Source: a candidate division FCPU426 bacterium
GTDB lineage: Bacteria > Oederibacteriota > Muellerivitia > Muellerivitales > DAHXKG01
DNA: 64,000 bases
Assembly: GCA_027366525.1 (NCBI GenBank)
Contig: DAHXKG010000010.1
Span: 7,808-71,807, forward strand
Direction: 5' to 3'
Part shown: in pieces, positions 6,233-15,191 of the stretch
Layout of the letters: every line of letters begins with the position of its first letter
Numbering within the stretch: the stretch's first letter is position 1
Program-made: the position numbers and the translations under genes
The notes under the pieces: generated by a model
Seen by the model: the letters and a program-made list of their open reading frames with translations, nothing else
What the model was told of the DNA's origin: nothing
Databases searched by the model: none

Positions 6233-6410
6233 ATCATCCACTCCGGAATTATGATCAATATATATAACAATGATCATAATATACAATTGCGATTATAATT
6301 TCAATTTTTTTGATAATCAATATTCAGGTCATATCTAATTTGATAAATAAATGCCACACTATAAAAGCAACTTTTTATGAAATTTGATTGAGAATACCAG
6401 GAGACCTCTA

Positions 6411-6752
6411 ATGCATGAATATTCGATGGCTCAAGAAATAGTTCAAGTTGCCCTCGCTCATTGCCAAGAAAAAAAAATCAGGGCGATTTACTTACGTATT
6501 GGAGCCTTATCGGGCATTGCTTGGGAATCCCTCCAGCTTTACTTAAATTTGATTTTAGAAGAAAAAAATCTTGATTTTGTCCAGGTTTTTGAAACAGAGA
6601 TTCCACCCTCTTTTCAATGCCAATGTGGTCAATCGTATATTAGTTCATGGACCGAAGGATGTCCTTATTGCGGATCCTTTCAACGAACGATTCAAGAAGG
6701 ACTTGATTGTCAAATCGAAAGTATTGAAATAGAAGAAACGTCTTCATCATAA
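6411..6752 (+). CDS. hypA: Hydrogenase nickel insertion protein HypA
   Basis: 113 residues. HypA hands Ni to the large subunit of [NiFe] hydrogenases together with HypB. The diagnostic N-terminus MHEYSMA supplies the nickel-binding His2. Two zinc-binding pairs (CQCG and CPYCG, about residues 65-90) form the structural Zn site. The ATG at 6411 is chosen because MHEYSMA must be the N-terminus and AGGAG lies just upstream; an upstream in-frame start at 6384 would bury His2. It is separated by about 31 kb from the hydrogenase genes it presumably serves. hypB is inside the Ech cluster; hypC-F are not in the window. Confidence 0.95.
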   Translation: MHEYSMAQEIVQVALAHCQEKKIRAIYLRIGALSGIAWESLQLYLNLILEEKNLDFVQVFETEIPPSFQCQCGQSYISSWTEGCPYCGSFQRTIQEGLDCQIESIEIEETSSS

Positions 6753-6882: not shown

Positions 6883-7392
6883 ATGGTCTTGGGAATTTTA
6901 GCGGATACTCAAATCCCATTCACTCCTTGCCAAATGATGGCCTTAAAAAAAGCTTTTAAAGGAGTTCAACTCATTCTTCATGCAGGGCCCTTGGGAAATC
7001 TAAAAATTTTGGATCAACTTTCAAATATCGCTCCTACCCAAGCCGTTTGTGGGAATGCAGAAAATTCGATTATCCGGTCAGAGCTTTTTATCCGTCAATC
7101 TTGGACCTTAGGTAAAGTTAAACTAGGACTGATTCATGGCTATGGAAAACCTCAAAACTTAAAATCGTGGCTTATCAAACAATTTGAAAACAATCCCGTT
7201 CAAATTATTGTCTACGGACGTAATTTCGAGCCTACAGCAAAACAACTAGGTTCCATCTATTTTTTCTCTCCCGGATCCTTTTTGGGGAACCTTCCGGAAG
7301 GGCAACATGGAAGACGCGGTCCAAGCCGTGTCGGACTTTTATTTATCCACGGAACTAAAGTCGATGGTATTCCCGGAATCGTACTTTCATAA
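6883..7392 (+). CDS. YfcE/MJ0936-like metallophosphoesterase, probable pseudoenzyme
   Basis: 169 residues with the layout of the small YfcE/MJ0936 phosphodiesterases: GILADTQ at the N-terminus, LILHAGP, QAVCGNAE, GLIHGYG, VYGRNFEP and FSPGSF. In active members these are SDTH, HAGD, GNCD, HGH and GHTH. Here His of DTH is Gln, Asp of HAGD is Pro, the second His of HGH is Tyr, and GHTH is GRNF. Most di-metal ligands are therefore gone while the fold-defining Gly and Pro-Gly-Ser positions remain. It is likely catalytically dead or altered. It is monocistronic; no partner is suggested by context. Confidence 0.75.
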   Translation: MVLGILADTQIPFTPCQMMALKKAFKGVQLILHAGPLGNLKILDQLSNIAPTQAVCGNAENSIIRSELFIRQSWTLGKVKLGLIHGYGKPQNLKSWLIKQFENNPVQIIVYGRNFEPTAKQLGSIYFFSPGSFLGNLPEGQHGRRGPSRVGLLFIHGTKVDGIPGIVLS

Positions 7393-8002: not shown

Positions 8003-9145
8003 TTAAAAAAACAAATGGGAGGTTGCCAGAAATGCTTCCTGAGTGGAGCTATCTTGTGGACTCAATACCTCGAAATCAAACTCGGTGAGTAAATCTTGAA
8101 TAGGAAACAAGCGAAGAGATAGAACCTGTCTCAGGAGTGGTGCAGAATCCAACCCAATCAAATTGGGATCACCCGGCGATGGGTGCAAAAATTCCCGCGT
8201 ATATCTCAAATAAACATTATGACCCAGATCGGTTTCCACGCTGACATGAAATGCCCACAGAGGATACTGAATTGAGAGCAATTGTGGATTCTGATCAAAC
8301 CCGCGGTCATATTCTCCCAAGATAACGAAGCGGGAAATATGGGTCCATCCAAAAACAGAGTTAAGACTTTGCATGGGCGTCGTATTAATGGTCGAACTGG
8401 AACCTGCTTGAATATATCCCTCATTTTGGTAGTAAGACCAGCCCAACGTAAATGGCCGAAAAGTAAGCAGATCCCAAGTGGAAAAAGCCTTTAGTTTTTG
8501 CTGGGCATTCAAATTTGGGCTTGTACTGTTAATTAAATCTACACAAACCATCAAATGATGGTTGAGCCAAGTAGGAGTCATGCCCATTTCCATTCCTTCA
8601 TCTACACGTTGGTAGCTAAACCCCAGTGGAGATCGCACCAAGCTATTATCGTCCTGAAGCATCAATCCATAGGGAACCTGAAAAATCCCAACTTTTATAA
8701 ACCCCTCTTGTGGAAGCCCATGGATCAAAAGATAATTTTCTCCCAATCCCAAATTGGTAATGGTAAAAACACCTGCCAACTTGGAATTAACATGAAGATC
8801 GGCATAAAAATTCTGCCGATTAATAAAAAAATTGGATTGACCTTGATTCGCTTCGTAATTGACGTACAGGTCTGCCCCTACCGTTAAATAAGGCTGGTGT
8901 TTTTCATGTGGCGGAGTAGTTTCTCCCACAAACCCTTTCCAATGAAAAGTCTGAAGATGACTGCCATAAAACTGTCCATAGGTCGTCCGCATATAACCGC
9001 CTGTTTGATTAACATGACAGGCATCACAACTCAAACCAGTCCATGCAGAAAAATACGGCTCTGCCTGAAGCGTACTCTGTATTAAAAAAACCAGTCCACC
9101 TATTAAAAATAGGATTCGCGTTAAACGATGGTGGCTAAATTGCAC
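8003..9145 (-). CDS. Outer-membrane beta-barrel with one N-terminal heme-binding motif
   Basis: 380 residues. A signal peptide (about 1-28, ending LQA) is followed by WTGLSCDACHVNQTGG, a single CXXCH c-type heme site. The remainder is alternating aromatic/polar strands typical of a porin-like barrel, ending in SHLFF with the terminal Phe usual for outer-membrane insertion. It starts seven bases after the stop of the copper-protein gene, so the two are cotranscribed. I infer an electron-transfer function at the outer membrane, by analogy with porin-cytochrome systems. The exact family is not one I can name. Confidence 0.7.
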   Translation of the reverse strand: MQFSHHRLTRILFLIGGLVFLIQSTLQAEPYFSAWTGLSCDACHVNQTGGYMRTTYGQFYGSHLQTFHWKGFVGETTPPHEKHQPYLTVGADLYVNYEANQGQSNFFINRQNFYADLHVNSKLAGVFTITNLGLGENYLLIHGLPQEGFIKVGIFQVPYGLMLQDDNSLVRSPLGFSYQRVDEGMEMGMTPTWLNHHLMVCVDLINSTSPNLNAQQKLKAFSTWDLLTFRPFTLGWSYYQNEGYIQAGSSSTINTTPMQSLNSVFGWTHISRFVILGEYDRGFDQNPQLLSIQYPLWAFHVSVETDLGHNVYLRYTREFLHPSPGDPNLIGLDSAPLLRQVLSLRLFPIQDLLTEFDFEVLSPQDSSTQEAFLATSHLFF

Positions 9146-9152
9146 AAAATTC

Positions 9153-9674
9153 TTAATTAACAGTTACAGCTCCTGCCATTCCCGTACAACTTGTTGAACA
9201 ACTCGTTGTGCAACTAGAGTGAACACCACAATGGAAATAATAAACTCCACTCGCATTAAACTGTAAACAAGGCGATGCACCACTACCATAGGTCGTACAA
9301 TTGGCACCTGAAGCATTAGTAATAATCAATGTATGAATACTAGCATATTGAAAGTCAATAGAATCACTTACTGGAATCGAAGCACCTAAAAAAGCATTAC
9401 CTACATTTACAGTTACTCCAGAAGGATAGGGACCCGTCGCAGTATAACTATAATAATATCCATTCGTTGAGTTGCTCGCTACAGTAATCGTTAAAACACA
9501 ATTGGCCTCTCCACCTACATTTGAAATGGAAACTGGATTCGTCCCCCCGGGAGTCGATGTTGGATAATAGCTAGGAGACGTGTAATTACTACCTCCTGAA
9601 GAACGTTGGCAACCCCAAACTACTGCACCTACCACTCCTAATAACATTGCCCACCCAATAATTGTCTTTTTCAT
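9153..9674 (-). CDS. Blue-copper (cupredoxin-like) lipoprotein
   Basis: 173 residues. Lipoprotein signal with lipobox VVWGC, then a Ser/Pro/Thr spacer. The domain from about residue 50 has plastocyanin-type features: VTVNVGNAF, a candidate upstream ligand in SIHTLII, then YYFHCGVH and TGMAGAVTVN. Cys, His and Met of the last two motifs are the usual type-1 copper ligands. The His-Met stretch is unusually long, with three extra Cys. It likely carries electrons on the periplasmic side and is encoded immediately upstream of the heme-motif barrel. AGGGAG-like sequence precedes the ATG. Confidence 0.75.
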   Translation of the reverse strand: MKKTIIGWAMLLGVVGAVVWGCQRSSGGSNYTSPSYYPTSTPGGTNPVSISNVGGEANCVLTITVASNSTNGYYYSYTATGPYPSGVTVNVGNAFLGASIPVSDSIDFQYASIHTLIITNASGANCTTYGSGASPCLQFNASGVYYFHCGVHSSCTTSCSTSCTGMAGAVTVN

Positions 9675-12929: not shown

Positions 12930-15191
12930 TTATCGAAGAATCATCAATTTCCCGATTGCCCGTCCATGTGGTGTAGATACAACTAGATAATAAATTCCAT
13001 TAGCCAGATTCATTGATTGTAAGTTTTGCATGGAAATTTCCAAGGTTTGACTTCCAATTCCAAACGGTCCTTCCGTGGATTCAAACACCTGTCGATACGC
13101 TGTTGTATAAATGCGCAGGGTAACAAAAGGCATCGATTGATTGAGAACCACATGAATTCGAATTATTCCTGTTCCATTGTAGGGATTAGGATAGGGAATC
13201 GGCGTAGAAATCGGGACACTTGGGAGAATAAGAACAGATGTTGGCGTAGGTGTCGCGGATAATATTTCTAGGGGCGTTGGAGTTATCGTGGGTGTACTCG
13301 TTATCGTGGGTGTCCATGTCATTGTAATTGTATTAGTCGGTGTTGGTGTCGTGGTTTGCGTCTCGGTTGGAGTCGGAGTGTTTGTTCTTGTAGCCGTCCA
13401 TGTAGGAATATTGGTTAAAGTCGGCGTAAATGTCATGGTTGGAACGGAAGTTTCAGTTGATGTTACTGTGAGTGTCGGTGTAGCCGTTACCGTTTCTGTG
13501 GGTGTAGAAGATTCCGTTGCTGTTGGGGTATTGGTTAACGTGATTGTAAAGGTTGCGGTCGCCGTACTCGTAGCGGTCGATGTATACGTATTTGTTGTTG
13601 TTGGGGTTATTGTCATTGTAGGAGTAATCGTTGTCGTGGATGTTGGTGTATAGGTAAATGTGGAAGTCGACGTGGGTGTCAATGTTGGAGTATTTGTTGA
13701 GGTCCATGTTGCGGTTGGTGTATTCGTTGCCGTGGGAGTAGGCGTTGCAGTTACGGTTGCCGTTGAGGTGGGAGTTGACGTTAAGGTCCATGTTACTGTT
13801 GGCGTATTCGTTGCCGTCGAGGTGGGCGTTGCAGTTATGGTTGCCGTCGAGGTAGAAGTTGAAGTTAAGGTCCATGTCGCCGTTGCGGTAAGAACAGGCG
13901 TTAATGTTCCTGTAGGAGTCATCGTAATCGTAAAGGTCGGTGTTGGTAATGGAAGAAGATTATAATCTAAAAAATTATCACTCAACATCAATAAGGACAT
14001 GACGGTCCACGATTCAGTATAGTAGGTTCCGCCTGTCAATAATTGAAGGGATGACAAATCTGTAAATGTGTCATTAACATACGATTGATATGTGCTACTG
14101 ATTTGTGCTCCGACACCCGCTGGCCCAACGAAAGCAGCCGATTGAATAGTCGCGCTAGCTCCTGTTTGATATTGCGGATCCGGAGTTCCGTTCAAGTTAT
14201 ACCCATCGACAATACTAACTGCACCTACACCTGAAAAAAAATTACTCGTGTCAGTGAGGTATGTTAAGGCCTGACTATTGCCAAAAAAAAGATAATCTTC
14301 TGCAATTCGAAATGGAGTTCGGCATGCATCATATTGATAGTTCGTATATGCTGTCGTGATAACCCCGGCAATCGATACACCAGACGAAGTACACCAAGCC
14401 GAGTCCAGACCATTATTAGCATTACCATAGCCTTGATTCAAATTATTCTCCAAAATCGTATAGCACTCGGCTCCAACTGAAACCCAGCCGTTATTGCCAG
14501 TCGCTTTGGCAAATTCCTGATAATAGGCTGGATCAAAATAAGACGGATTGGTTTCCGAACTCCCTCCAAATCCATCTCCTGGTTTTAGAACATAATCCGA
14601 CGTTTCTACTTCAGTATTATAGATATCATTAATTTGAGTAATGGCATTATTCAAATAGGTTCCTGTAATCGTTCGAGTTCCTTGTCCTCCCCATTGACGT
14701 TGGGCCATTAATAGTGCCCAAGCCATATCCTCATCGGCGTCTGTCGCCGCACCTGTTCCGCCGGTGGTATCGTTGCTGTAGATATACCAATTCATGAGTC
14801 CATTGCCATCTAAGTTTTGTTGTTCATATTTCCATAAATTATCAAATAAATATTCATCATTCATGTAAACAGCAATAATCATCCCATATCCTATCCCCTC
14901 GGACACTGTCGAATCAACTTGTAGACCAGGCTCATTCGGACGTTGAACGCGTAAATATCCGCCCGCACCTGCCGTCGTTACACAAGCGCTATACCACTGT
15001 TCATAGGCGGCTTCAACGGTATTATTATTGTAATTCGTAGCATAAATTCCATACGCATTGGCTTTATTTTGAGGGAACGGGAAATTAGCGGGTCCATAGT
15101 TGACAATGGAAGCTCCTTGAGCCTGGAAAGCGAGCCCACTTAATAATAAGCTTAGACTCAATAGCCATTTGCGTTGAGTAAAAAGAATCAA
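12930..15191 (-). CDS. Secreted GH8 endoglucanase with Thr/Pro linker and sorting-type domain
   Basis: 753 residues. Signal peptide 1-26 (ending FQAQG). The catalytic region (about 45-415) has GH8 hallmarks: [14 protein letters not shown] (97-110, Glu98 the likely acid) and [13 protein letters not shown] (149-161, containing the conserved Asp residues), with [18 protein letters not shown] further on. Family 8 enzymes cut beta-1,4 links in cellulose, lichenan, xylan or chitosan; I cannot set which. The linker (about 420-665) is Thr/Pro/Ser/Ala with 84-base repeats. The C-terminal domain (about 670-753) has [17 protein letters not shown] and [10 protein letters not shown], homologous to the end of the protein encoded at 2.5-4.0 kb. 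Possibly in one unit with the beta-barrel gene downstream of its start region. Confidence 0.9.
13700..13880 (-). repeat. 84-bp tandem repeats in the GH8 linker
   Basis: TTAAGGTCCA (plus-strand reading) recurs at 13781 and 13865, 84 bases apart. The unit encodes 28 residues of the form [20 protein letters not shown] and onward. More diverged Thr/Pro codon runs extend on both sides, about 13250-13930. Confidence 0.8.

Follow-up and report, generated by a model that had tools for sequence, protein, structure and literature searches.

A predicted monoheme porin paired with a lipoprotein cupredoxin in candidate division FCPU426: a possible two-component electron relay at the outer membrane

A porin carrying a single heme-binding motif and a small lipoprotein cupredoxin are encoded side by side in a genome of candidate division FCPU426 (2.02 Mb, 33 contigs, completeness 97.5%). 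We lean towards reading this pair as the two parts of an electron relay at the outer membrane, in which the barrel heme would work together with a tethered cupredoxin and heme and copper carriers would be interchangeable. The porin belongs to a family that is found in several phyla, often beside a small redox carrier, and that is distinct in its motifs from Cyc2, the nearest known system.

The gene pair and its products

Both genes lie on the minus strand of the window, the whole stretch of 64,000 nucleotides analysed here. The lipoprotein cupredoxin gene comes first (9153–9674, 173 aa, ATG start), assigned from its ORF, an alignment and a profile match. After a 7-base spacer (9146–9152) it is followed by the monoheme cytochrome-porin gene (8003–9145, 380 aa, GTG start), assigned from its ORF, its homologues and an AlphaFold2 model. 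The arrangement of two genes seven bases apart was thus as originally predicted, and this spacing on the same strand makes a single transcript very likely. Among the ORFs of the window, no closely spaced same-strand gene lies downstream of the barrel gene, and the next clear gene past it is on the plus strand (6883–7392). A second plus-strand gene (6384–6752) encodes a HypA-type nickel metallochaperone, a hint of a [NiFe] hydrogenase in the genome. The minus strand at 12930–15191 encodes a GH8 glycoside hydrolase whose Thr/Pro-rich linker, with TPT repeats, is very long and whose C-terminal domain is sorting-like. Profile searches of the genome found two PF01578 cytochrome-c assembly genes and a heme-copper oxidase subunit, COX1 (PF00115), which make c-type heme and an aerobic respiratory chain plausible in the host.

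The signal peptide of the porin (residues 1–28, 9062–9145, minus strand) was predicted by eye from the sequence, with cleavage read as ...STLQA/EPYF. The only heme-binding motif, C40-D-A-C-H44 (9014–9028, minus strand), is invariant across the barrel family and is followed by N46-Q-T-G-G-Y-M-R53 (8987–9010, minus strand), which corresponds to the consensus N-P-T-G-G-G-M-R in the family alignment. An AlphaFold2 model made with nine aligned sequences showed 16 strands (residues 86–379) with a mean pLDDT of 60.7; with the Phe at the end, the predicted barrel extends over residues 86–380 (8006–8890, minus strand). Most strands had a pLDDT of 70–80 and the heme segment one below 50, and because of this split we regard the barrel prediction as credible and the modelled position of the heme as not credible. 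When the model was compared with known structures using VIA-align, OprO ranked first and OprP second (Z = 20.9 and 20.8; rmsd about 4 over about 300 residues), with other 16-strand porins just behind (Z = 19–20). The original prediction of a CXXCH site at the start of a barrel therefore held, both for the motif, which precedes the strands, and for the barrel, which was predicted to form. As single queries, neither protein of the pair matched a family significantly in Pfam or NCBIfam, and a PDB sequence search with each alone gave nothing significant.

In the cupredoxin, Cys22 of a lipobox-like V-W-G-C (9609–9620, minus strand; read by eye) is the predicted lipid anchor. A Trp at position −2 is uncommon in a lipobox, and in most relatives the site reads LAC. 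The first type-1 copper ligand is His114 (9333–9335, minus strand), and the others lie in the loop C149-x2-H152-x2-C155-x3-C159-x3-C163-x2-M166 (9177–9230, minus strand). In a seven-row alignment, H114, C149, H152, C155, C159 and C163 were invariant, while residue 166 was Met in six rows and Leu in one. Relatives from the same order share H-[TPS]-L, then F-H-C-x2-H-x2-C-...-C-...-C-x2-[ML], plus a Cys after the first His. Three extra conserved Cys sit between the ligands His152 and Met166, which are separated by 13 residues, whereas the corresponding gap in plastocyanin and amicyanin is two to four residues. Disulfides among the extra Cys probably hold the ligand loop together. A profile of the cupredoxin family matched plastocyanin 1pcs (E = 2e-4) and amicyanin (E = 5e-4) in the PDB, and some members of the family match Copper-bind or Cupredoxin_1. 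A single-sequence AlphaFold2 model of the window protein reached a pLDDT of 33. The originally predicted type-1 copper site is thus supported by the conserved ligands and the profile match, while the lipid anchor is a candidate one, given the unusual lipobox.

The porin family and its neighbors

Each of the eight other genomes of the order has a homolog of the barrel. The barrel profile matched 51 of 384 relatives, as well as 54 of 132 genomes of a second phylum, 23 of 39 of a third and both genomes of a fourth; some weak matches within these counts may be other porins. Across 76 distinct full members, the heme context reads P-x-[FYL]-[AS]-x6-CXXCH-x-N-P-[TS]-G-G-G-x-R. The Arg of this signature (R53 in the window) is present in 76/76 members and was no search criterion, whereas CXXCH and the Pro and first Gly of the signature were required by the family finder; N46 is present in 53/76. 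The CXXCH with its flanking signature is the best-conserved region of the family, while the barrel itself is divergent. In the open-access literature (subscription papers and preprints being outside the scope of the search), we found no description of the NPTGGG signature or of a link between YceI, a porin and extracellular electron transfer. The barrel family and its lipoprotein-carrier module therefore appear to be undescribed, which is weak evidence of novelty.

Using locus labels corrected with a YceI profile, we sorted the neighbors of the 76 members into 37 with a heme-motif gene, four with a cupredoxin (the window included), 17 with YceI next to the barrel, 16 with none recognized and two at contig ends. 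The 37 members with a heme-motif neighbor span 15 family labels. Their neighbors are mostly lipoproteins with one heme site; a few have two sites or an atypical CX1CH or CX6CH spacing. In the partner lipoproteins of L150, L161 and L105, an apparent C-x-CH (SCSCH or NCSCH) replaces CXXCH, and others have CX4CH. YceI (PF04264) recurs by the barrel, often between the barrel and a heme lipoprotein (L111, L112, L123, L143, L145 and others), and several of the 17 YceI-next members have a heme lipoprotein as the second gene. A heme motif was found in 32 of 66 small ORFs directly downstream of the barrel. Among the other ORFs of these loci it was found in 21 of 286, and about nine of those 21 are themselves the second gene of the cluster. 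The associated p value of 8e-14 is indicative only, as the rows are phylogenetically correlated. By HMM, the partner heme lipoproteins are one family, several members of which are assigned to Pfam PSCyt1. A profile built from 16 of them recovered the others, including those located upstream of the barrel in G003, G332 and G194, and also matched convergent barrel neighbors in G004 (L016) and G007 (L020).

In the tree, the window groups with FCPU426 members and with L160 and L161 in a clade of ten rows (support 97/84), within which the same-strand carrier, where present, is upstream of the barrel. This carrier is a heme lipoprotein in G003 (L013, 16 bp) and in G332 and G194 (L160 and L161, 20 bp), and a cupredoxin in the window (7 bp). 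Within this subclade, copper in place of heme in the upstream slot is found in the window only. Because the nearest relatives hold a heme lipoprotein in the same slot, we read the window pair as a copper-for-heme swap. Copper also occurs beside the barrel elsewhere: in G391 (L113), the barrel, a heme protein and a plastocyanin-like gene are found in a row, and in three members of family f168 a plastocyanin that is not a lipoprotein lies 114–151 bp downstream of the barrel, a separate occurrence of copper beside this barrel family. A same-strand adjacent carrier is absent in six of the eight same-order barrels classified. A 102-aa ORF upstream of the barrel in L014, which a script had tagged as a heme lipoprotein, was rejected as a chance reading frame and no convincing heme protein. 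A polysaccharide lyase 14-type gene directly follows the barrel in L013 (8500–9930), L014 (4646–6034), L019 (2446–3867) and L034, and was confirmed by profile in three genomes.

Since this neighborhood recurs across relatives, it supports the view that the monoheme porin and a small, tethered carrier of single electrons form a conserved functional pair. As to the original expectation that the pair would be conserved together, the association of the barrel with a small tethered redox carrier extends across several phyla, but the window alone showed a lipoprotein cupredoxin next to the barrel.

The proposed relay and its alternatives

The relay is put together from features at the sequence level: the signal and lipid anchors, the heme motif, the copper ligands, the barrel prediction, the recurrent barrel-carrier neighborhood, cytochrome-c maturation and a heme-copper oxidase. 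The short N-terminal segment of the 16-strand porin would bind one c-type heme, which, placed in the pore, would carry electrons across, linking the cell surface with the periplasmic side in a Cyc2-like manner. The cupredoxin, loaded with copper, would be lipid-tethered to a membrane, most likely at the inner leaflet of the outer membrane, where it could contact the porin and swap single electrons with the barrel heme. It would in turn act as donor to, or acceptor from, carriers of the periplasm and the respiratory chain. A heme lipoprotein would do this job in relatives, and the window version would be one in which copper replaces the heme carrier. Of the two directions of flow, we favor uptake, from an extracellular donor to the oxidase. 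The originally suggested compact route for electrons across the outer membrane is thereby partly supported: the barrel is predicted and its association with a carrier is conserved, while the route itself is our best reading rather than a demonstrated one. More tentatively, the family may represent a widespread, undescribed class of conduit, made up of a CXXCHxNPTGGGxR monoheme porin and a tethered carrier with interchangeable heme and copper, in which YceI would be a conserved, maybe quinone-linked component and to which FCPU426 would have added its own disulfide-rich cupredoxin.

We considered the possibility that the barrel is a divergent Cyc2 iron oxidase and the pair an iron-oxidation pathway like that of Cyc2 plus rusticyanin. 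Cyc2 combines one heme and a 16-strand porin in a single chain, and OprO and OprP have been reported as its templates (PMC8406198). It is defined by a signal peptide, a single N-terminal CXXCH and a length of at least 365 aa, with AXPXFAR[Q/K][T/Y] upstream of CXXCH and PXL about four residues after it (PMC8406198). In Acidithiobacillus ferrooxidans, the copper proteins rusticyanin and AcoP are among the next carriers (PMC8406198, PMC7029218). The window barrel resembles Cyc2 in its length of 380 aa, its signal peptide (by eye), its one N-terminal CXXCH at residues 40–44 and its fusion to a 16-strand, OprO/OprP-like porin, although other 16-strand porins score nearly as high. Furthermore, a profile-profile alignment of the family with Cyc2-like proteins covered the first 45 residues or so (probability 91, E = 1e-6), corresponding to the signal peptide and heme segment only, and A-x-P-x-F is retained. 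However, the window has AEPYFSAWT in place of AXPXFAR[Q/K][T/Y] and CDACHVNQTGGYMR at the PXL site. Both defining motifs are absent in 76/76 members, which have CXXCHxNPTGGGxR instead, with NPTGGGxR where PXL would be expected; this count applies to the present family alone, as the finder itself required an NPTGG-type pattern. In addition, both Cyc2 motifs occur in a different gene of the window's genome (ALPSFARQTGLACTACHTVFPEL; L070 5722–7050, G000:C11). We therefore consider a divergent Cyc2 unlikely. The cluster around the Cyc2-like gene, also seen in G001 (L022), encodes a COX2-like/cytochrome-c protein, a Fer4_5 membrane protein, a ferritin-like and a cupredoxin-like protein.

It is decidedly unlikely that the pair instead sends respiratory electrons out of the cell, where an acceptor or a redox enzyme that acts on polysaccharides would receive them. 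The lyase gene that follows the barrel in several same-order relatives and the GH8 gene near the pair would be consistent with export, but in the window neither a lyase nor a redox enzyme is encoded directly beside the pair. A search of the window's genome with the PF21294 profile gave no matches, and a polysaccharide lyase partnership as a general explanation was accordingly rejected for the window. Blue-copper carriers usually have fairly high redox potentials, which favors feeding an oxidase.

About equally improbable is a chance neighborhood, in which some other carrier serves the barrel and the cupredoxin, one of the order's solitary lipoproteins, came to lie here by accident. The cupredoxin subfamily is indeed multi-copy and order-specific, being present in six of the nine genomes of the order and in no others among the 192 genomes searched. 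Its copies other than that of the window stand alone, and no barrel or cytochrome was found beside the close same-order relatives. On the other hand, the sole copy in the window's genome shares the strand of the barrel gene and lies 7 bp away from it, in the slot that a heme lipoprotein occupies in the nearest relatives. Finally, an ordinary anion- or phosphate-type porin whose CXXCH is not a working heme site is very improbable in spite of OprO and OprP being the best folds, as conservation in this family of otherwise divergent barrels is highest at the CXXCH and its flanking signature, and heme proteins repeatedly adjoin the barrel.

Comparison with known systems

Cyc2 serves as the marker by which minimal, single-heme transfer of electrons across the outer membrane is recognized, and the concept of a single-heme porin is already known through it. 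A second, sequence-distinct family of the same architecture would enlarge the set of bacteria suspected of extracellular electron exchange. Members of the present family, which occurs in many uncultured phyla and repeatedly lies beside a lipoprotein gene, would escape searches with the Cyc2 motifs. The partner would also give a concrete answer to how the electron from one porin heme is handed on, and the copper-for-heme swap in one gene slot would amount to a natural experiment on what is required of the carrier. A third CXXCH porin-like type (AIPSFARMYNYNCTMCH...) adjoins monoheme cytochromes in FCPU426 (L102 2894–4162 and L103 4164–5432).

The window cupredoxin has the His-Cys-His-Met ligand set of the plastocyanin/amicyanin-type cupredoxins, consistent with the profile match, and differs from them in its predicted lipid anchor and its four extra conserved Cys. 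The PSCyt1 (PF07635) lipoprotein cytochromes, which fill the slot beside the barrel in relatives, differ from it in carrying heme instead of copper, and the heme-lipoprotein profile does not match it. The multiheme porin-cytochrome complexes (MtrAB/MtoAB and PCC3) likewise use an outer-membrane barrel as an electron conduit, but with a separate decaheme or larger cytochrome inside, whereas here one heme motif lies in the barrel chain itself, and no multiheme gene was found beside the barrel among the ORFs of the window. The contrast with these complexes that was originally drawn holds as to the single heme motif, but it missed Cyc2, the nearest known system. In contrast to Cyc2, the partner of the present family is a predicted lipid-anchored carrier from an adjacent gene, mostly a heme protein and in the window a copper protein. 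By its defining motifs, the barrel is not a Cyc2; Cyc2 is nevertheless the right analogue for the way in which it would work.
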